Shown piece after piece: positions 12,937 to 30,759 of a stretch of DNA of 35,079 nucleotides. Below the pieces are notes generated by a model that ran no database searches, was not told the origin of the DNA, and saw nothing but the letters and a program-made list of their open reading frames with translations. Source of the stretch: a virus; the IMG/VR virus record IMGVR_UViG_3300042542_005339, positions 1-35,079 of that record, one strand, 5' to 3'. How positions within the stretch are numbered: position 1 is the stretch's first letter; each line of letters opens with the position of its first letter. The translations under genes and the position numbers were made by a program.

Positions 12937-13833
12937 TTATCTGATCAGGATGATGCGCGCGGAAGCACCAGGCGCCCCAATGCGCGGCACGCCTTCAACG
13001 CGCGCGGCACGGGCCATCGCTGCCACCAAAGCAACCCGCTCAGCCGGCGGCACCGCTGGAAGCGTGACAAAGGGGCTGAATAGAATATCCGCATCGGCCA
13101 GGAACGGCAGACCAAGAGCAACCGCGCCAGGCGCAACCACGGGCGCGTAAAGCGCAGCGCCAGAACCCAGGAAGGGAAGCGAAAGCCCACCCGAACCCGG
13201 CGCAACCACGGGCCCGAACAGCACATTACCAGCGGGCAGGAAGGGCAGGCTTAGTGACTGCGCGGGCCCACCAGCAAGGCTGACCGATGGCGCGTAAAGC
13301 ACATTGCCTGAAGCCAGGAACGGCAGGCCAAGCGTAACCGGCCCCAGCGCGAGCGATGGCCCGAACAGCGCAGCGCCAGAAGCCAAGAAGGGAAGGACCA
13401 GCGATTGCGCACCGCCCCCCGCCAAACTGACCACCGGCGCGTGGAGCACATTACCAGAAGCCAGAAAGGGCAGGCCAAGCGCAACCGCGCCGGGCGCGAC
13501 CAATGGCGGGTAAAGCGCGGCGCCAGACGCCAGGGAGGGCAATCCAACCGCAACCGCACCAGGCGCGACCAATGGCGCATAAAGCACGCCGCTGGATGCC
13601 AGGAAGGGCAAGGCCAGCGATTGCGCACCGCCACCCGTTAAGCTAACGGATGGCGCATAAAGCACAGCGCCGGACGCCAGGAACGGAAGCGCCAGCGATT
13701 GAGCACCGCCGCCCGCCGCCACAGGCGACCAAATCGCTACCCGCCCGCCATAGCCCTTTTGGGCCGCGAGCGTCCCGGTCAGCGTCGAAACAAAAACCCG
13801 ACCGCCGTAGCTTTGCTGGACATTCAGCGTCAT
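12937..13833 (-). CDS. Tandem-repeat virion protein (LPFLASG...LYAP repeats)
   Basis: A 298-aa protein from ATG 13833 (TGATG overlap with the spike stop). Residues 1-45 contain two QSYGGRV/KGYGGRV units. Residues 47-257 are nine tandem units of 22-26 aa built on LPFLASG-x-(V/A)-L-(Y/F)-(A/G)-P. Two linker kinds are mixed: VSLAGGGAQS and VAPGAVALG. The pattern predicts a regular beta structure, possibly a fibre shaft. Proteins with similar APTV/PLL repeats are common and unnamed in alphaproteobacterial phages. The C-terminal 40 residues are non-repetitive (PPAERVALVAAMARAARVEG). Position between spike and small Ig-like gene suggests a tail fibre or fibre-attachment component. Confidence 0.7.
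   Translation of the reverse strand: MTLNVQQSYGGRVFVSTLTGTLAAQKGYGGRVAIWSPVAAGGGAQSLALPFLASGAVLYAPSVSLTGGGAQSLALPFLASSGVLYAPLVAPGAVAVGLPSLASGAALYPPLVAPGAVALGLPFLASGNVLHAPVVSLAGGGAQSLVLPFLASGAALFGPSLALGPVTLGLPFLASGNVLYAPSVSLAGGPAQSLSLPFLPAGNVLFGPVVAPGSGGLSLPFLGSGAALYAPVVAPGAVALGLPFLADADILFSPFVTLPAVPPAERVALVAAMARAARVEGVPRIGAPGASARIILIR
13063..13695 (-). repeat. Nine-unit coding tandem repeat
   Basis: The DNA encoding residues 47-257 of the repeat protein consists of degenerate 66-78-nt units. The block around the LPFLASG codons is the most conserved (plus-strand form AGCCAGGAACGGCAGGCCAA and variants). Units are similar enough for copy-number change by recombination or slippage. Confidence 0.75.
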
Positions 13834-15812
13834 CACGTCACCGTGATGGCTTCGAAGTACCCGTTAAAAGTCGTGCCGCCCCAGGCGATCACATCAAGGC
13901 TGACAATCTGCGTCCCGCTGCCGGTGGGGGAAAGCGTAAGGGTCACCGTCTCCCACGTGTTTGCAGCCGCCGTCATAAGCGCGCGTTGCTCAGTCGTGAT
14001 CCCAGGCAAGCCTTCGGTTGGCAGGTAGGACAGGCCAAGCGAAAGGCCCGTATTGTCGCGGCGCATCCGAATGGCAATGGATGTCGTCACCCCGCGCGTG
14101 ATCTCAAATTGCCCAAGCGGCAGGCGCAGCGGGCCACGGGCCACGGCATTGCTGCTTGTGACTTGTACGCGCCAGGAAGAAGCTTGCGTATTCACCACTG
14201 CGGTCTGCCGGGTCGCCCGACCATAAGTGTGGCGCAGCGTGTCATTGCCCGCAGTCTTGCCTAGGCTTTCGACCGAAACCAGCCCGTCATTGCCGTTTGA
14301 GACAAAGAAGATGTCGCTTGCCTCTCCCAAGCTTGCATTCCTGAGACGCGCGCTAACCCCTTGTTGGGCGAATATCCCGCCGTTCTGATTGTTGAGCGTC
14401 ACTAGGTCGTCAATACAGATGGAATCGTTTCCGGGATTGCCGTTCAGGTTGAGGCCATAGCCCCCGGCATTTCGAATGGTGATGCCCCGCACAAAATTAC
14501 GGCCCCCGGAATAAGTCATAGCCGATAAGTAGGCGTAGATGTTTTCTAAAAAGCTACCGTTCGGCTGGTTCGCTCCGCCGAGCGAAAAGTTGCTGCCCGC
14601 AGAATAACAAACATTGGCAGCACTGAGACCGCTTTGGGCGAAGCCGTTGCCTGCAAAGCCGCAGGAGTTCAGCAAGCAGTTCTCCACGCGGCACCCGTCA
14701 CTGCCGGGCAAAGTGTTCCCGCTGAGCGACGTGTTCATGACGAAGTTCAGGAACGTGTGAAACCCAAACCCGCCCGCCGAATAGGTGCGGGACGACAGCA
14801 TGTACCGCGTCATGCCCGTTCGTGTCGCCATGTCCGCTGCCGACCAGCCGCCCGTCCAGACGGTTTGATCTGCGGCGGTCCCGGCCTCGTTGGGCGACCA
14901 GATACGGGGTTCGGTAAACGGGAAACACTGGTGGGCATAGGTGGCCACCGTCCCCGCCGCACCGTCATATCCCCGGCCACTGGAATCAGCACCGTTGTCT
15001 TGGGTGCCGGATCGGTTCAGGACAACAACTGTGTCCGACGTGACACCCATCACACCAAACAGCGGTTCATCGCCGGTGCCAGCGCCGCGCAGCGGGGGCG
15101 CCGTGGTGTAGGCGGTTTTGCTGACCATGGTGGCCAGCGTGATCTCATCGGCACTGCCGCGGGCCTTGGATGCCCACAGGCAGTTGATCGAAATGGTCGG
15201 AGTGCCGGGGTCTGCCGTGGCGCGCAGGGCAATGGAATTGATCGTGCCGATGCTGCCGGTATGGGCGATCAGGCCCGCAAACCATGCGCTGCCTGCGGCG
15301 TCCGCAAACGGTATTGAGACAATCGGAACGTCGCCGGTCGCGTCCGAGCACAGGTCCAGAAACACAGTTCCCGCCGTCAGCGCAACCGTTGTCCGAAACC
15401 AAACGTTGACCTGCTGAAACGCGCTCAGGTCCATCGTCAGCGGCTTATGCGCAAGTTTGCCGGTGGTAAAAGCCGCGCCAACGATAATGGAGATCGCCCC
15501 CGCGCCGATGATCCGGCTGCCGACCGAATTAACCGTGACGTTAGCAGCCGCGACCCAGCCCGGGCTCACCGCCAGCGCGTCGATCAGCTTGACGATGCCA
15601 GCCGGAACCGTGATTGACCGCGCGCTTGCCCCGGTGGTCCAAGTGCAGTTGCCGATCAGGGTCGGGTCGGGGCTTTCAATAAAACGCAGCTCATCTCCAG
15701 GTGCCATCCGCGCCGCCGTTGGCCCGCCGTTGATCGTGCGCCAGCGGGTGGCAAAGGAAAGGCCATTATTGGCGTCGTTCCCGCCGATGGGATCAATGAA
15801 GTATGTGGGCAT
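13833..15812 (-). CDS. Tail spike / receptor-binding protein, beta-helix type
   Basis: A 659-aa protein. The N-terminal YFIDPIGGNDANNGLSFATR is the phrase that commonly opens pectate-lyase/right-handed beta-helix spike proteins. The middle (about 300-480) has short Asn/Gly-rich turns (NAGGYGLNLNGNPGNDS, NNQNGG) typical of beta-helix coils. The C-terminal ~120 residues look like a beta-sandwich (TQASSWRVQVTSS ... TWETVTLTLSPTG). Such spikes bind or cut host surface polysaccharide. Codon use is less GC-rich than in its neighbours, with more frequent A/T-ending codons, which hints at a recently exchanged host-range module. Catalytic residues cannot be located. Confidence 0.75.
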   Translation of the reverse strand: MPTYFIDPIGGNDANNGLSFATRWRTINGGPTAARMAPGDELRFIESPDPTLIGNCTWTTGASARSITVPAGIVKLIDALAVSPGWVAAANVTVNSVGSRIIGAGAISIIVGAAFTTGKLAHKPLTMDLSAFQQVNVWFRTTVALTAGTVFLDLCSDATGDVPIVSIPFADAAGSAWFAGLIAHTGSIGTINSIALRATADPGTPTISINCLWASKARGSADEITLATMVSKTAYTTAPPLRGAGTGDEPLFGVMGVTSDTVVVLNRSGTQDNGADSSGRGYDGAAGTVATYAHQCFPFTEPRIWSPNEAGTAADQTVWTGGWSAADMATRTGMTRYMLSSRTYSAGGFGFHTFLNFVMNTSLSGNTLPGSDGCRVENCLLNSCGFAGNGFAQSGLSAANVCYSAGSNFSLGGANQPNGSFLENIYAYLSAMTYSGGRNFVRGITIRNAGGYGLNLNGNPGNDSICIDDLVTLNNQNGGIFAQQGVSARLRNASLGEASDIFFVSNGNDGLVSVESLGKTAGNDTLRHTYGRATRQTAVVNTQASSWRVQVTSSNAVARGPLRLPLGQFEITRGVTTSIAIRMRRDNTGLSLGLSYLPTEGLPGITTEQRALMTAAANTWETVTLTLSPTGSGTQIVSLDVIAWGGTTFNGYFEAITVT

Positions 15813-22582: not shown

Positions 22583-23193
22583 ACCAAGGCCTCCCGCATG
22601 GTGATGGTCACCTGGCCAAAGCTGGGCGGGCGGATATTCAGGCCGGGCGCTTCATCCTGTGGCAGCATGAAAGCGCCGATGGGTGCAGCGATTTCCACCG
22701 CTGCGCCATTGCTGCCCGCGCGACGAATGGGCGGGCTGATCGTGAGCGCCGCAACGCCAGAAGGATTGGCCGAGGCATCCGCCACCACCTGGTGCAGGCG
22801 CTGCCTGCCGCCCAAATCCACATAGGAAAGCCAATCACCTGCGCGCATAGCCTGGGCATTCGCAGTCCAGCCGCTGGTGGAAAGCACTTCGCCGGATTGC
22901 CCGGCGCCGTTGATTACCGGCACACCGCCACCCGTAGCGCGGCGGGGCGACCAGATGGGCCCATAGGTAAAACGCCCGGCCCGGCCACGCAGCCGCGCCA
23001 GAAAGGCCGATAACTCGCGCCGATCATCCGGCGAAAGGGTTTGCCAGGTGACTGTGAATTCCCAGCGCGCGCCCGGCATTTCCAGCGTTTGCATGGTGCC
23101 ATCGAAGGGGCTTTCATGCGTCTGCGTCAGGCCGATCAGCTTTTCAGCCGCTTCAGATGGGCGGCGGATGGTGGGGAAGGTCAGCACAGGCAT
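22579..23193 (-). CDS. Distal tail protein, 204 aa
   Basis: Begins MPVLTFPTIRRPSEAAEKLI, with SPFDGTMQTLEMPGARWEFTVTWQTLSPDDRRELSAFLARLRG. This N-terminal block is typical of tail proteins that follow the tape measure gene (distal-tail/minor tail beta-barrel proteins). The C-terminal half is beta-rich and ends NIRPPSFGQVTITMREALV. It overlaps the tape-measure stop as TGATG. It likely joins tail tube and tip. Equivalent to lambda gpM by position; not proven by sequence here. Confidence 0.7.
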   Translation of the reverse strand: MPVLTFPTIRRPSEAAEKLIGLTQTHESPFDGTMQTLEMPGARWEFTVTWQTLSPDDRRELSAFLARLRGRAGRFTYGPIWSPRRATGGGVPVINGAGQSGEVLSTSGWTANAQAMRAGDWLSYVDLGGRQRLHQVVADASANPSGVAALTISPPIRRAGSNGAAVEIAAPIGAFMLPQDEAPGLNIRPPSFGQVTITMREALV

Positions 23194-25232
23194 CAGCGGC
23201 GCCCCATGACCTTGGCGGCATTACCGCCACGGTTCACCGCATCCAGCATTTCAGCCTGCGCTTGCTTGGTTGCCATCAGCATGGCCGCGCGGATTTTCTG
23301 ATCAACGGCCGGGTCCGCGCCGCGCGCATCAATCGTGATGGTCTGGTTGATCACCACGCCACCCTGCCCGCCACCACCCGCGCGCACGCCAAGCTTGCCA
23401 TCCGCGCCGCGCTGCAAAGGCATGATGGCTTCCGGCCCGGCTTCACCCATCAGGCCCATGCCGCGCGCCATGGGGAACATGGTGGGGGAGGATACAACGC
23501 CGCCATTGGCGAAGGGGATCACGTTGCCGCCCCAGAAGGCGTTGCCATTGGCGGAGGGTAGGAACGGCCCAACCGAAGATGCGGATGAATAGACTGGAAC
23601 GCCTTGTGCGTTACCAGCCGCCGAGAAACTGAAATTGCCCATCAGCGATTTCATGCCACCAGAAACCGCACCAGAAATGGCTTCGCCAGCCGGGCCGGTC
23701 ACCGCCGTGCGCAGGATGATGCGCGCGATGTCCCGTTCCAGGGATTGCAAAACTTCGCCAAATTTCTTGCCATCCAGGATCGCATCTTCAAAGGCACTGC
23801 TGAAGGACATGCCCATCTGCACGCCCATGCGGTCTGTGCGTTCGGTTTGCTTTTCCGCGCGTTCCAATTCATTCGCGAAGCGCTGTGTCGCGCGAGTGAG
23901 TTCTTCCGTGGAAAGAGCGCGCACCCGCACGCCATTGATTTCTACGCCCCGGGCTTCGGCTTCATTCAGGCGTTCTTGCAGCGCCGCCAATTCTTCACGC
24001 TGGCGCTGATAGCGTTCAAACGCGGTTTCATTCGCGCGCAGCAGGGATTGCTGTTCGCGCAGGGTTTCCGCGAAGGGGTCTCGGCTTGCCGCAGCCGCAC
24101 GCGGGGCCGCGCCGCCGCGCGGGGCGGTGACTGTGGTGGCAGGCAAGGCGCCTGCGGTGCCGCCGGGGGGATTAAGGATACGTTCCGCCTGCTGGCGCAG
24201 TTCTTGTTCACGCTGATTGAGCGCGCCCATTTCGCGCTGCAATTCCTCAAGGCGCAGCCTTTCCTGGGAAAGCAGGCTTTCCGGCGTTTCGCCGGTTTGG
24301 CCCTGCGCCGTGCCCACCAACCCCGAACGGATGGAACCACGGCGGCCAGGCGAAATGCCCGTGCTGCCTTGCTGCAGTTGTTCAATGCGGCTTTGCGCCG
24401 CGCTGATCTGCAAATCCAACTGCGCGCGCCGCTCAGCCGTATTCAACCCAAAAATCAGGCGGTTCAAACCATCAATCACGGAAACAATGGCCGGCGCCAC
24501 ATTGGCAACCATATTATTGGCAAAAGCGGAGAAGCTGGCACTCAGCGCAGCTACCTTATCCGCAGCCTCATCGGCTTTTGCAATCAGTTCAGGGCTGGCA
24601 ATGGTGCCGAAGCGAATTGCCTCAGCCGTCATGGCCACCAAACCTTCGCGGCCCTGCGACAGCATCGGGATCAGCTTCTGCCCAATGCGGTCCCCAAACA
24701 TGGAAGTGACCACTGCCGCGCGCTCAGCCGGGCTTTCAACCTCGCGCAGCCTTTCGGCAATATCCACCAGCACGGCTTCAGTCGGGCGCGCTTGGCCTTC
24801 AGTATTGCGGAAAGCAATGCCCAACCGCGCGAAAGCTTGTTCCGCCGCCTGCTCACCCGTTGCAGCATCGGCAATCTTGCGCGTGAGCGCAGCCAGGCCG
24901 CGCTGCAATTCTTCACCGCTGATGCCAGCCTGGGTGGAAGCAAGGCTTAACGCCTGCAGTGCATCCGTGGAAACGCCAAGCTGGTCCGCCAATTCGCCCA
25001 GGCCACCAACCGCATCAATAGCGTTCTTGGTAAAGGCTGTTAGCGCGCCAACCGAAATCCCCGCCAACACCGGCCCAAGCAGCGAAAACGCCCGCTGCGC
25101 CACTTGCGCGCCCTGGGCCAGCTTGCCCATTTCGCGGCTGCCAGCTTCACCCACATCACGCAGGCCCTGCTTGACTTCCAGCGCGCCATCCATACCAAGG
25201 CGGATCGCAACCCTATGCTGTGCTTGCGCCAT
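23193..25232 (-). CDS. Tail tape measure protein
   Basis: I chose ATG 25232 because it has AAGGAGG at 25245-25239; the frame extends to 25325 but those residues lie over the gpT reading frame. The product is 679 aa. Residues about 45-200 contain TMP_2/TMP-like sequence (FSLLGPVLAGISVGALTAFTKNAI, GLGELADQLGVSTDALQAL). A long helical and coiled-coil centre follows (about 280-470, Gln/Arg/Glu-rich), then a C-terminal tail (about 560-679) with GEAGPEAIMPLQRGADGKLGV, the near-universal motif of these proteins. Length predicts a tail of about 100 nm by the usual 0.15 nm per residue rule. Confidence 0.9.
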   Translation of the reverse strand: MAQAQHRVAIRLGMDGALEVKQGLRDVGEAGSREMGKLAQGAQVAQRAFSLLGPVLAGISVGALTAFTKNAIDAVGGLGELADQLGVSTDALQALSLASTQAGISGEELQRGLAALTRKIADAATGEQAAEQAFARLGIAFRNTEGQARPTEAVLVDIAERLREVESPAERAAVVTSMFGDRIGQKLIPMLSQGREGLVAMTAEAIRFGTIASPELIAKADEAADKVAALSASFSAFANNMVANVAPAIVSVIDGLNRLIFGLNTAERRAQLDLQISAAQSRIEQLQQGSTGISPGRRGSIRSGLVGTAQGQTGETPESLLSQERLRLEELQREMGALNQREQELRQQAERILNPPGGTAGALPATTVTAPRGGAAPRAAAASRDPFAETLREQQSLLRANETAFERYQRQREELAALQERLNEAEARGVEINGVRVRALSTEELTRATQRFANELERAEKQTERTDRMGVQMGMSFSSAFEDAILDGKKFGEVLQSLERDIARIILRTAVTGPAGEAISGAVSGGMKSLMGNFSFSAAGNAQGVPVYSSASSVGPFLPSANGNAFWGGNVIPFANGGVVSSPTMFPMARGMGLMGEAGPEAIMPLQRGADGKLGVRAGGGGQGGVVINQTITIDARGADPAVDQKIRAAMLMATKQAQAEMLDAVNRGGNAAKVMGRR

Positions 25233-25916
25233 CGGTTGCCTCCTTCTCATTGCTGGCCTGCGCCATGCCGGTGCGGATCGCGACCAGCATCTGTGCTGCC
25301 GGCCAACCTGAAACACCGCCTTCACGCATCAGCGCCAAGGCGGCAGAAATATCCAAAGAAAGCCCGTTCATATCTGCCTGCACGCAGCCCATGGCGGCAT
25401 GCCAGGCGGTGAAGCCTTCCGCCGATTCTGGCGAATTCGCTTCATAGGGACACTTGTCGCCGCAGCTTTTTTCGAGTGCGGCGCAGCCTTTGCAGTATGC
25501 GGGACCGGCGCCGAAGTGCCATTCGGCGCGGGCCCTTAGCCGTTTCCCTCAGCACTCACTACCTGGATCGGGCGAAGCGCCGCATCCCAAAAGGCGCTGG
25601 CCATGGCTTCAATATCCATCAGCCGTTCCGCCGCATCGCCGGTCAGAGGCAGGGGCGCATCATCCGGGCCAGCCACACCCTGCCATTCCTCAATGGCAAA
25701 ACGCGCCAAGGCCTTCGCCATCAGCACGAAGGCCAGGCCCCGGCTGATGTCGGGGTCCAATTCGCCGCCGGCGGCTTCTGCCGCCTCCCGCCCCAGCCGC
25801 GCGGCGCGGTGCTGCGCGGCGGAGACAATAGCCGTGGTGACGGGCTTGATCCGCACCCGCACACCATGCGGCAGATCAGCCCAGAAGGGTTCAACCGGCA
25901 GGTCCAGTTTAAGCAT
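25213..25916 (-). CDS. gpG-T-like tail chaperone made by -1 frameshift
   Basis: The frameshift product of the 25536-25916 gene, 234 aa: 125 residues in the gpG frame, then 109 residues in the -1 frame down to TAG at 25215-25213. The -1 frame has no good start of its own and runs from a stop just before the slip site to 20 nt inside the tape-measure gene. The extension holds four clustered cysteines (AYCKGC, KSCGDKC; spacing C-x2-C-x6-C-x3-C), a helical centre (LSLDISAALALMREGG) and a Trp/Pro turn (GWPAAQMLV). In lambda, gpG and gpGT chaperone tail assembly, with T recruiting the tail tube protein. Gene order here is the same. Confidence 0.85.
25501..25548 (-). promoter_or_regulatory. Programmed -1 ribosomal frameshift signal
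   Basis: The heptamer GGGAAAC (minus strand 25548-25542) sits in the required phase G-GGA-AAC, three codons before the zero-frame TAA. After a 6-nt spacer a stem-loop follows: GGGCC at 25535-25531 can pair with GGTCCC at 25506-25501 (one bulged T), and above a C-C mismatch GCGCCGAA at 25529-25522 pairs perfectly with TTCGGCGC at 25515-25508 around a 6-nt loop. Slippery site, spacer and structure all match known -1 signals, and slipping places the ribosome in the open T frame. Confidence 0.85.
25536..25916 (-). CDS. Tail assembly chaperone gpG-like, 126 aa
   Basis: The zero-frame product, stop TAA at 25538-25536. It begins MLKLDLPVEPFWADLPHGVR and is largely helical (AAQHRAARLGREAAEAAGG, ISRGLAFVLMAKALARFAIEEW), ending ALRPIQVVSAEGNG. 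Position between tail tube and tape measure defines it as the lambda gpG equivalent. It starts inside the tail tube gene (8-nt overlap). The normal termination product should be in excess over the frameshifted form, as in lambda. Confidence 0.8.
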   Translation of the reverse strand: MLKLDLPVEPFWADLPHGVRVRIKPVTTAIVSAAQHRAARLGREAAEAAGGELDPDISRGLAFVLMAKALARFAIEEWQGVAGPDDAPLPLTGDAAERLMDIEAMASAFWDAALRPIQVVSAEGNG

Positions 25917-26865
25917 AGACAGTGCCGGCCTGGTTGTTGCGCAGCACCACCGTCATGGCGCGGGTAGCCGTGGCGTTGAAGGCCGCACGGAAGTCAAACG
26001 TGGCTTCCACCCCAGATGGGCCGGTGATCGGCGTCTTGGCCAGCGACAAATACGCTTCATGCACGGTGAAGGTTAGGCTGGTGTTTGCGTCAATCGTGTA
26101 GGCGAAGGCGAATTCAGCGCTTGCGCCGGTATCGGCTTGCGTCAGCAGCGTGGTACTTTCAAAGCGCGTGGTGACCTGGCCGGTAATAAGCGAAACGCCG
26201 GGGTCAATACCTTCCAGCTTGCGATCCGCGCGAATGGTGCGGACCATTTCCATGTTGTTGTTAAAATTCAGCCGCGCGCCAGTCACCTGCGCCAGGGCCG
26301 AACCACCCCGGCTGATGCTGCCCTGGTGCTTGCTGAAGCGCGTATAGGCCGCGCTGGTCGGCGTGCCGGCGGCAGTGGTTACCGCGCGGCTGCTGCCCTG
26401 TGCCATCAAGCCAATAGTCGCCTGGGCCGCGCCGGTTGGGCTGAAATCAATATCCAGGCTGCCCGCGCGCGCGCCCACGCAGACTTCGAAGGAAGGCACA
26501 TCAGGATGCGCAATTTCGATAGCCTGCGAAGGCAGCGTGGCCGCACCGGAAGCAAAGGTGTGAATGAAGTTCGGGTTGCTGCCCGTGGTGACCGGCGCGC
26601 CAAACAGCATGCGCAGCCAGTGACCGATATTGATCACGTCAATCGGCACCACGGCATTGCCTTGCACCGTGATAATGTCCTGGAAGGGCGCGGCTGCGTC
26701 GCGGTTATTGCCCGCCGCCAGCACGTCAGACTGGATCAGGGGCTGTTCCGCGCTCAGGTCAATAGACATGAACGGCATGCGCAGCCAGTTGCCACCAGGC
26801 GCGGTGCCAAAGGTGGTTTCCTTGATCATGTTAATGCGCCCATTGGCGCCAATGGCACGCGGCAT
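25909..26865 (-). CDS. Tail tube protein
   Basis: A 318-aa beta-rich protein. The opening GRINMIKETTFGTAPGGNWLRMPF and the middle ...WLRMLFGAPVTTGSNPNFIHTFASGA... match the phage tail-tube family (Phage_tube_2). It polymerises as stacked rings around the tape measure. The size is larger than lambda gpV's core but usual for this family. Its neighbours are the tail terminator (upstream) and gpG (overlapping 8 nt). The rest (about 160-318) repeats beta-strand/loop sequence with FESTTLLTQAD and SLTFTVHEAYLS segments. Confidence 0.85.
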   Translation of the reverse strand: MPRAIGANGRINMIKETTFGTAPGGNWLRMPFMSIDLSAEQPLIQSDVLAAGNNRDAAAPFQDIITVQGNAVVPIDVINIGHWLRMLFGAPVTTGSNPNFIHTFASGAATLPSQAIEIAHPDVPSFEVCVGARAGSLDIDFSPTGAAQATIGLMAQGSSRAVTTAAGTPTSAAYTRFSKHQGSISRGGSALAQVTGARLNFNNNMEMVRTIRADRKLEGIDPGVSLITGQVTTRFESTTLLTQADTGASAEFAFAYTIDANTSLTFTVHEAYLSLAKTPITGPSGVEATFDFRAAFNATATRAMTVVLRNNQAGTVYA

Positions 26866-26881: not shown

Positions 26882-27331
26882 TCAGGAAAGCGGCGTTTCG
26901 GCCGCGGTGAATTGCAGGGTTACGGAAAAGCGCGCGGCACGGAGCGCGGCGGCGCCTTCAAATTCAATGTCTTCCAGATCGGCGGTGCCGACCTCAGCAA
27001 ACTCCACCGCACCGCCCAGCGTGCGATTTGCGGACACGCCAGCGGACAAAGCCACCAGCAAAGCATCAATCGCCGCAGCGCGGGCGGCGGCGGTATTGCC
27101 GGCCACAACCACTTCCACTTCGGCGGCATGTTCGATGTGGTAGCGCAGCGGTGACATGATGGCTTCAGAAGTCACCACTTCCCCATCCCGCACCACCACC
27201 AGGCCGCCAGCGGGCAAGCTTTGCGGGTAGGGTTCATTCCGCAGCACAACAGGCTTCGGCGCGGGCCGCGCGGCGGCGGATGCGGTAATCTGCGCCACCA
27301 GCGCGGCGATGGCCGTTTCACGTGCGGACAT
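26882..27331 (-). CDS. Tail terminator / completion protein (gpU-like)
   Basis: ATG 27331 (MSARETAIAALVAQITASAA) is chosen as the start; a further-upstream ATG at 27364 would lie in the upstream gene. The protein has 149 aa, with LRNEPYPQSLPAGGLVVVRDGEVV, a helical IEHAAEVEVVVAGNTAAARAAAIDALL segment and a RTLGGAVEFAEVGTADLEDI stretch near the end. The pattern fits gpU-like tail completion proteins between head-tail connectors and the tube. These cap the tail for joining to the head. It overlaps the preceding gene by 14 nt. Confidence 0.7.
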   Translation of the reverse strand: MSARETAIAALVAQITASAAARPAPKPVVLRNEPYPQSLPAGGLVVVRDGEVVTSEAIMSPLRYHIEHAAEVEVVVAGNTAAARAAAIDALLVALSAGVSANRTLGGAVEFAEVGTADLEDIEFEGAAALRAARFSVTLQFTAAETPLS

Positions 27332-28055
27332 TGGCGCGGACCTCCTTATCCCATTCGGCGACAAAGCGGCCTGGGATGCGCGCGGCGGCTTGTTCGGCGG
27401 GCTTCCGAATATCCAGGCGCTTGGGCAGATTCACGGCAGGCAGAAGCAGGAACATGGGCACCATGCCCTGGCTGAGCAGCTGATTCATCCAGCGGCTTTT
27501 TTTCGCGCGATTCGATGTCGCAACCGGGGTCACACCACCGGCAATCAAGTAACGCGGGCGGCGCTTGCCCGGTGTGTCACCGGGACGCTTGATTGGCAGG
27601 CACCAAACAAATCCCTTTGTGTTTGTGCTACTGATGGGGCGTATGAAAGCTTGCTTGCTGGCCACCATCTGCGCCGGCGTCACGCGCATTCCCTTTTCAC
27701 CACGCCCGCGCCTGCCCCGCGTAGCGTTGAAGCCAGTCGGGATCGCCAAAAACTTCTTCCCACCCTTGGGCCGGATCATCGCGCCTTTTTCGAAGGCATC
27801 CACAATGGCCGGCACCTTGGACCAAACCAGCCCCGCCGCGCCCAGGCTTGGCCTGCGCGGGAAGGTGCGCGCGCGCCAGGCATTGCCAAGGCCGCGCCCT
27901 TTGGGGCCGAAAGCGGCGCTGATCTGGCCGCGTAAATCAAGCTGCAGCCGGCGGGTTTCTTCACCCATCACACGGGAAGCAGCGCGCGCGCCGCCTTCCG
28001 TTTCCAGCTTCATGTATTCCGCGATATTGCCGGTGACCTGCGCCACAAACTTCAT
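27318..28055 (-). CDS. Head-tail connector/minor tail protein (DUF6441-like)
   Basis: A 245-aa protein from ATG 28055 (MKFVAQVTGNIAEYMK), which overlaps the upstream stop as ATGA. The sequence contains ETRRLQLDLRGQISAAFGPKGRGLGNAWR, then VPAIVDAFEKGAMIRPKGGKKFLAIPT, matching proteins labelled DUF6441 in phage genomes. The C-terminus is strongly basic with RRPRYLIAGGV and KSRWMNQLL. In gene order it takes the place of lambda gpZ/FI-region proteins. Function: likely head-tail joining. The alternative upstream ATG (28076) would extend it by 7 residues. Confidence 0.7.
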   Translation of the reverse strand: MKFVAQVTGNIAEYMKLETEGGARAASRVMGEETRRLQLDLRGQISAAFGPKGRGLGNAWRARTFPRRPSLGAAGLVWSKVPAIVDAFEKGAMIRPKGGKKFLAIPTGFNATRGRRGRGEKGMRVTPAQMVASKQAFIRPISSTNTKGFVWCLPIKRPGDTPGKRRPRYLIAGGVTPVATSNRAKKSRWMNQLLSQGMVPMFLLLPAVNLPKRLDIRKPAEQAAARIPGRFVAEWDKEVRANVRT

Positions 28056-28782: not shown

Positions 28783-30759
28783 TTATGCCGGCGCAGCGCC
28801 CGCGTTGAAGAAGCCGCCGCGGAAATCCATGGCGCCAACAGCGAAGTCATGCACCACTTCAACCACCGTGCCATCCACACCCATCGGCTGGCCCACGCGC
28901 ACCTGCGGGACCTCATTGTCGCCCACATAGCCGTACACATAGACCGGCGCGGCGGCAGGATCGGCAAACAGATACCAGCGGTTGTTCGGGATATTGGCAT
29001 CCGACACCACTTCAAAGCGGTTCGCGAAGACGTTCACATTGCCAGGCGCAGAAGGAACCACTGTGGAAGACGCGAACTGCGCCGCCACAAATTCCTGAAT
29101 GGGCGAACACACCAGATAGCGCGGCTGGATGTTCAGCTTCAGGCCATCAAGGCTGGACTGCGCCTTGATGGCATTGAAGCCAAGGCCGAGCGCCACCCCC
29201 GTGACGGCGCTGGCGGTGCCCGCCTTATTGTTGCGCGTGCCGCCAGCGGCAAACACCGCAGCGCTGCCTTCGGCCAAAGTCGGGCCGTCACCAGAAGCGG
29301 TATTCACCACGCCATAAGCCGTGGCGTTTTCCCAATCCGCAATGCGGCGGCCAATCATGGTGCCGAAGTCAGTAAAGGCGCCAAGATCGTCATTGACCAG
29401 CATCTGGCGCGTGACGGCCACGCCACGCGCATAAGTGGCCGGCGTGATCTGTTCGCGCTTTTCGCTGACAGTGCCGCGCTTGATTTCGCCACCTTCACCC
29501 AAAGCCTGCAGGGACGGGAAATCACCCGCCGTAAGGAAGGAATGCGCCTTGAAATCGTTGAAGCGGCGGCGGGCAAAGAACGCCCGATAAGAAGGGGACG
29601 CCAGCGCATAGCCTGCTTCCAGCATTTTATTGCCGGCATTGGCCAACAGCAGCGGGAAGTCAGACGAAGTGTGGAAAGCGCGAGCGATCAGCGCTTCACG
29701 GTCACGGGAAGAAACCCGTTCACCACGCGCCTGCGCCAATTCAATCAGCATATCGGAAGGGCGAAGGCCCACGAAGTTGCGCCACTGGCCTTCACCCGCC
29801 TTGCTGGCAACCGCCGGCATGTGGCGGGCAGCAATGGCAGTCGCCATGGCGTCAACGATATTGGCCGGGTCTTCATAGGAACGGCCGATTTGGCTCACCA
29901 GACCAGGCTTCAGGGCCGGGCGGGTTTCATCGGCGGCCACAATGGCGCCGAACAATTCCGCGCGCAGCCAGGCCGCGTCATGGTCACCGCTGATGGCGCG
30001 GGCCTTCAGTGCGTTGACCTGGGTTTCATCCAGCCCTTGGGAACGCGCCAGGCGGGCGGGTTCTTCCAGGCTTTCAATGCGCGCGCGTTCCTGCGTGCGC
30101 ACCGCACTGACATCAACCGCCTGGGCGGCAGATGCCACATTATTGTCGCGCGCCTGCTCGGCGGCGGGGACCGTAGTATCGGCCATGCTCTCTCCTTCGC
30201 GCCTAGGCGCGTTGTTGCCTTCTGCCGTGGTAGCGGCACCGGCCGCACGCACCTGCGCGCTGGCATCGGCCGGGATAGGGACAAGCGAAATCTCGAACGG
30301 GGTCCACTTCTTGGCGGTGCGGACCAGCACATCATCCGGCCCACGCGATTCCTGCCAGTCTTCAGAAGCGACCTGGTAGCCAACAGAGACATTGCGCAGG
30401 ATGCCATCGCGCACATCATTCAAGATGGGCTGGACTTCATCGCGCGCAGAAAAGCGCACCTGGGCGCGGCCTTCGCCATTCATGATCCAGGCGCGTTCAA
30501 CCACGCCAATCACATCACGCAAATCATACTGGCCATGTGTATTCAGCAGCGGTGCGCCACCATTCAGCCGGGCCAGGTCCACCGCTTCTTCAGTCATGGC
30601 CAGTTCTTCAATGAAAGGCTGGCCACTGCGCCAATCGGTACGGCGCACGCGGGCGCCGGTACTCCACACCAGCTCCACCGTGCGGGTATCCGCGTTGAAG
30701 GTACTGGGCGCAAAGCGCGCTTCAAGCCGCGGCACTTCCGCAGTTTGCATTTCAGTCAT
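28783..30759 (-). CDS. Prohead protease-major capsid protein fusion
   Basis: A 658-aa protein. Residues 1-175 are an HK97-type (U35) prohead protease, with His75 in GGAPLLNTH, Ser125 in RNVSVGYQVAS and a probable third residue at Glu156 (TPFEISLVPIP). About 176-300 is a linker and helical scaffold-like segment (ARIESLEEPARLARSQGLDE). The rest, from about 310 to the end, is an HK97-fold capsid protein (FLTAGDFPSLQALGEGGEI, KREQITPATYARGVAVTRQMLVNDDLGAF, PNNRWYLFADPAAAPVYVYGYVG). The protease, scaffold and capsid parts are thus one polypeptide, presumably self-processed during assembly. Such fusions are known from some phages but are less common than separate genes. Confidence 0.9.
   Translation of the reverse strand: MTEMQTAEVPRLEARFAPSTFNADTRTVELVWSTGARVRRTDWRSGQPFIEELAMTEEAVDLARLNGGAPLLNTHGQYDLRDVIGVVERAWIMNGEGRAQVRFSARDEVQPILNDVRDGILRNVSVGYQVASEDWQESRGPDDVLVRTAKKWTPFEISLVPIPADASAQVRAAGAATTAEGNNAPRREGESMADTTVPAAEQARDNNVASAAQAVDVSAVRTQERARIESLEEPARLARSQGLDETQVNALKARAISGDHDAAWLRAELFGAIVAADETRPALKPGLVSQIGRSYEDPANIVDAMATAIAARHMPAVASKAGEGQWRNFVGLRPSDMLIELAQARGERVSSRDREALIARAFHTSSDFPLLLANAGNKMLEAGYALASPSYRAFFARRRFNDFKAHSFLTAGDFPSLQALGEGGEIKRGTVSEKREQITPATYARGVAVTRQMLVNDDLGAFTDFGTMIGRRIADWENATAYGVVNTASGDGPTLAEGSAAVFAAGGTRNNKAGTASAVTGVALGLGFNAIKAQSSLDGLKLNIQPRYLVCSPIQEFVAAQFASSTVVPSAPGNVNVFANRFEVVSDANIPNNRWYLFADPAAAPVYVYGYVGDNEVPQVRVGQPMGVDGTVVEVVHDFAVGAMDFRGGFFNAGAAPA

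Follow-up and report, generated by a model that had tools for sequence, protein, structure and literature searches.

In phage lambda, gpG and gpGT are linked by a -1 frameshift at the heptamer G_GGA_AAG, with a gpG:gpGT ratio of 30:1 (PMC5009743). In the model for this system, the tape measure protein is bound by gpG along with a smaller share of gpGT; the T portion brings in the tail tube protein, and both chaperones then leave (PMC5009743). The g-t genes of HCTV-1 and HCTV-2 carry G_GGA_AAC and A_AAA_AAC, respectively (PMC5009743), and in the gp12/gp13 genes of Acinetobacter phage Loki a -1 site, AAAAAAC, has been predicted beside the stop codon of the first chaperone gene (PMC5313236). In the paper on the Rhodobacter capsulatus phages, RcZahn has been flagged as unusual, the lone phage without clear signs of the usual tail-assembly-chaperone frameshift (PMC8601537). 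Among the Rhodobacter capsulatus phages of the RcC cluster, RcBaka, RcOceanus, and RcKai are annotated with a joined tail assembly chaperone coding sequence (CDS) whose length fits a -1 shift. The first-pass annotation of the DNA studied here expected standard annotation to leave the T span as a gap or to extend the tape measure gene wrongly, which does not hold for these curated genomes; less curated records, such as those of Nostoc and Synechococcus phages, list the T half as a short separate gene.

The stretch that we analyzed (the window) comprises all 35,079 nucleotides of a 35-kb virus contig, IMG/VR record IMGVR_UViG_3300042542_005339. It codes for a terminase, a portal protein, a protease-capsid fusion, and an integrase, which suggests a temperate long-tailed phage. 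The fusion is a single 658-amino-acid open reading frame (ORF; 28783 to 30759) that contains both a prohead protease (Peptidase_S78) and a major capsid protein (Phage_capsid_4). Elsewhere, a minus-strand ORF at 12937 to 13836 consists of imperfect tandem repeats of the form xLPFLASGxxLYAPxV (TRF periods 69, 78, and 147) and has no Pfam match.

Comparison with PHROGs revealed the usual order of tail genes: tail terminator (26882 to 27364; phrog_4204, E = 1e-19), tail protein, tail assembly chaperone, tape measure protein, and distal tail genes, those from terminator to tape measure lying on the minus strand. The tail protein gene (25909 to 26865; phrog_290, E = 3e-49) bears the PHROG label "minor tail protein" but occupies the tail tube or major tail protein position, and the gene at the same position in RcBaka is called "tail tube protein." The tape measure gene (23193 to 25232; phrog_8462, E = 6e-40) begins with an ATG at 25232 that is preceded by GGAGG. 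Between these two genes lie two ORFs, the second in the -1 frame relative to the first. The first, gpG (25536 to 25916), encodes 126 amino acids, ends at a TAA (25538 to 25536), and belongs to the tail assembly chaperone family phrog_313 (E = 7e-9, compared to 1e-9 for RcBaka gp16). The second, the T frame (25213 to 25548), was delimited from the ORF itself, alignments, Pfam matches on homologs, and an AlphaFold2 model. It runs for 111 codons counted from GGG, or 109 without the two slip codons as the first-pass annotation had counted them, and closes with a TAG (25215 to 25213); the tape measure gene overlaps its end by 20 nt.

The 3' end of gpG reads GTG AGT GCT GAG GGA AAC GGC TAA on the minus strand and contains the heptamer GGGAAAC (25542 to 25548). 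The gpG frame splits it as G_GGA_AAC, so that an X_XXY_YYZ heptamer stands within the overlap of the two ORFs in the phase required for tandem -1 slippage, just as first proposed. In the -1 frame a TGA lies immediately 5' of the heptamer, and the zero-frame TAA follows 10 nt downstream of its first base; a shift would therefore be workable only within this short overlap. As a word GGGAAAC is common enough, with four occurrences in the window against 3.8 expected; what is rare is its phase and place. We scanned 26 minus-strand genes in the window, 7,995 codon positions in all: X_XXY_YYZ heptamers with Y = A or T stood in phase four times, and those of the GGGAAA or AAAAAA type once, at the gpG/T site. 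We looked across the homologous junctions described below for a Shine-Dalgarno-like stimulator 5' of the heptamer and did not find one (1 of 141).

To determine how far the site is shared, we collected 145 distinct homologous junctions from viral contigs, genome contigs, and annotated phages, using scan patterns that excluded the heptamer region. In 141 of these, an in-phase heptamer lay exactly 27 nt upstream of the conserved WHFG codons (113 GGGAAAC, 26 AAAAAAC, 1 GGGAAAA, and 1 AAAAAAA). Codon choice at the site was fixed as well. All 114 glycines at T codon 1 were encoded by GGG, which accounts for 12% of the glycine codons elsewhere in T, and all 141 lysines at T codon 2 were encoded by AAA, although AAG is common elsewhere in T. 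Where codon 1 had changed from glycine to lysine, three bases had switched together to AAA, so that the residue was altered in both frames while slipperiness was retained. This combination of fixed codons and of slipperiness kept through a residue change argues for selection on slipping, not on the protein alone. The -1 frameshift site is thus real and very strongly conserved among relatives, as the first-pass annotation had anticipated for both the heptamer and the paired bases that follow it. One member of the T family with AAAAAAC, L054 (MT836000.1), is an unannotated phage scaffold from a human fecal sample, and the family may therefore reach beyond alphaproteobacterial hosts.

The last base of the heptamer deserves less weight. 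Position 7 is the first base of an arginine codon, T codon 3, that is invariant in all 141 junctions, and the difference between a terminal C and a terminal G is for this reason not informative. We also considered host lysine tRNAs as the cause of AAC in place of the AAG favored in Escherichia coli; this explanation is needless, as the constraint from the arginine codon suffices. The zero-frame stop fell into two classes, either 10 nt after the start of the heptamer (95 of 141) or 73 to 142 nt after it (46 of 141), implying that gpG has a C-terminal tail whose length varies and whose coding sequence overlaps the T frame.

Four junctions lacked an intact heptamer and were inspected individually. 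In two of them (L087 and L089) the site contains ambiguous bases (N), and a third (L199) starts near a contig end, where the end of gpG is not recognizable. The fourth, L178, carries a real difference: GTGAAAC stands at the site (about 1995 to 2030), both frames are kept, and gpG acquires a TGA stop there, overlapped by a new GTG start for T. L178 may be explained by an error in sequencing, by decay of the prophage, or by a natural switch from frameshifting to a coupled start. Homologs that keep both frames while losing the heptamer had been named at the outset as evidence against frameshifting, and L178 is the only clear example among the 145.

L178 also illustrates how T could be a separate gene with its own start, used through re-initiation or coupling, with the heptamer being incidental. 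Nostoc phage Nsp-JY21 is annotated in this way, with a short separate second chaperone gene, and the T frame of the window does contain internal start codons, the first being an ATG at codon 53. The first-pass statement that T has no start of its own therefore needs to be narrowed: codons 1 to 52 contain no ATG, GTG, or TTG, whereas such codons do occur from codon 53 onward, beyond the most conserved residues of T. It is those first 52 codons that hold the K-R pair, WHFG, and four cysteines, all invariant or nearly so in relatives, and T thus lacks a usable start while being under coding selection. Moreover, in the 46 junctions with a distant zero-frame stop there is no coupling point at the junction, and neither the fixed position of the heptamer nor its fixed codon choice would be expected of an incidental sequence. 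We consider a separate T gene very improbable, and frameshifting at the heptamer remains the preferred reading.

As an independent test of this reading, we ran the Pfam profile PF24752 (DUF7697) against seven selected genomes and 289 genomes from the same class. This profile covers only T residues of about 60 to 107, so that a match starts some 60 residues past the junction. The heptamer lay exactly at T position 1 in 16 of the 17 loci recovered; 6 of the 17 came from genomes sampled before, and 10 of the remaining 11 were new positives. The sole locus without a heptamer, L228, resembles a disrupted copy.

L228 raises the question of whether T is in general a decayed remnant, or a sequencing frameshift, of a gene that was formerly an in-frame fusion, since such a history, too, would leave two ORFs in different frames. 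However, the identical frame break at the identical codon recurs in more than 140 distinct phage and prophage junctions, and both frames are under purifying selection. When the window was compared to six relatives, most differences in T were at third codon positions when read in the -1 frame, and gpG showed the same pattern in its own frame. We therefore regard decay or sequencing error as exceedingly unlikely, and T as a maintained coding frame.

Downstream of the heptamer, after the 6-nt spacer GGCUAA, the RNA is predicted to fold into a stem-loop (25502 to 25535, minus strand). Its lower stem, GGGCC paired with GGUCC, has 5 bp including one G-U pair; a C-C mismatch separates it from an upper stem of 8 perfect bp, GCGCCGAA paired with UUCGGCGC, closed by the 6-nt loop UGGCAC. 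This is the two-part hairpin of the first-pass annotation, at a spacing suitable for stimulating a -1 shift. In the window, its minimum free energy corresponds to a z-score of -3.0 for a 50-nt element and -1.55 for a 79-nt piece. Across 109 distinct junctions, the 50-nt element had a mean z-score of -3.1 and a mean energy of -26.3 kcal/mol, compared to -15.4 to -20.9 kcal/mol at six offset control positions. In an ungapped alignment, a single register (i + j constant) gave 86.7% paired cells, against 33 to 56% when slid by one to three columns. Compensatory changes were present in five pairs, chiefly columns 15-46, where G-C is replaced by C-G in 22 sequences, and columns 21-40; the shuffle control for covariation is inflated by kinship among the sequences. 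The upper stem coincides with the codons of the nearly invariant A-E-W-H-F-G, and its conservation is therefore partly a protein constraint, which makes the lower stem the better evidence that the hairpin itself is conserved.

The hairpin also bears on whether the two frames could be joined by slippage of the polymerase during transcription. Some homologs have AAAAAAC at the site, and cyanophage homologs carry a run of eight A residues, either of which might suit such a process. In the window and in most homologs, though, the site is GGGAAAC, with homopolymers of at most three bases, and the X_XXA_AAZ tandem-slip pattern is retained together with the downstream hairpin in all groups. Transcriptional slippage can accordingly be given hardly any probability.

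We also asked what kind of protein the T frame encodes. In an alignment of 51 T sequences, the invariant residues were K2, R3, A6, A8, W10, H11, F12, G13, G15, Y18, C19, C22, C29, C33, P40, W49, and D66. The four cysteines form a conserved motif, and their pattern suggests metal binding. The AlphaFold2 model of the window T is mostly helical (mean pLDDT of 88), and its first helix starts directly at the junction, with residue 2. A search of the PDB by sequence and by fold detected no relative of this model. Against viral models the matches were weak, several of them to proteins named tape measure or tail assembly chaperone. The window T alone had no usable match in Pfam or PHROGs, and its near relatives L045, L046, and L048 scored about 15 bits against DUF7697, below the cutoff of 27. 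The T proteins of Rhodobacter and Nostoc phages matched this family well above the cutoff over residues 60 to 107, the homologs L051 and L053 scoring 60 and 57 bits; loci with the domain include L051 (2501 to 2860) and L216 to L232. These profile matches place DUF7697 at the C-terminal half of the frameshifted four-cysteine T domain in the homologs, and the family was probably built from ORFs cut at internal start codons. It is reasonably likely, if far from assured, that DUF7697 is not a stand-alone domain but this half of a T domain that almost always arises through frameshifting at XXXAAAC, mainly in alphaproteobacterial phages, and that constitutes a separate T-domain family, as the lack of a detectable relative among solved structures would imply.

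Taken together, the gene order, the PHROG match of gpG, the heptamer and hairpin conserved over the 145 junctions, and the joined CDS of the Rhodobacter phages support the first-pass proposal that T is the second half of a tail chaperone reached by a -1 shift. We predict, with near certainty, a programmed -1 ribosomal frameshift of the lambda G/GT type that yields gpGT. Most ribosomes would make gpG and terminate at the UAA (25538 to 25536). In a minority, the hairpin that begins 6 nt past the heptamer would cause a pause while GGA occupies the P site and AAC the A site; these ribosomes would move back by one base onto GGG_AAA and continue through the T frame to produce a gpGT of 234 amino acids. 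Its junction would read ...VVSAEGN|RLRARAEWHF..., provided that the slip comes after AAC has been decoded. The shift at the heptamer and its rate are inferred, as are the roles of the two proteins. By analogy with lambda, the gpG part would coat the tape measure protein, to which the T part would recruit the tail tube protein; gpG and gpGT would both leave before the tail is completed.

Although the site leaves existing knowledge of frameshifting itself unchanged, it brings to light a hidden half of a protein shared by a large family of phages and prophages of alphaproteobacteria, and it gives DUF7697 a likely role. The more than 140 naturally occurring versions of a -1 signal whose hairpin is conserved could also serve for testing frameshifting rules outside E. 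coli.

Compared to lambda, the locus has the same gene position before the tape measure gene, the same class of -1 tandem-slip heptamer, a shift near the 3' end of G, and T as a fusion. It differs in that the heptamer ends in C instead of G, a strong hairpin follows the site, and T is a four-cysteine domain with no relative detected. The phages of the RcC cluster (RcBaka gp16/gp17, RcOceanus, and RcKai) share a homologous T of about 31% identity, the identical GGGAAAC, a hairpin in the same register, and the same neighbors; their zero-frame stop, however, lies 94 nt past the start of the heptamer, compared to 10 nt in the window, and the stem sequence differs. The heptamers of HCTV-1 and HCTV-2 are the two main ones of the T family, although these are haloarchaeal viruses whose likeness to the window lies in the heptamer. 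For Loki, the likeness consists of the predicted -1 site and of a structural match, a very weak one, between its chaperone and the T model. GGGAAAC is thus not a new variant of the lambda heptamer, having been published for HCTV-1 g-t (PMC5009743), and with both main heptamers described and the homologous CDS already joined in the RcC cluster, the frameshift in the window is of a known kind. To this our analysis makes modest additions, namely a T domain that has no detectable PDB relative but carries a conserved four-cysteine motif, and the placing of DUF7697 as its C-terminal half in homologs.
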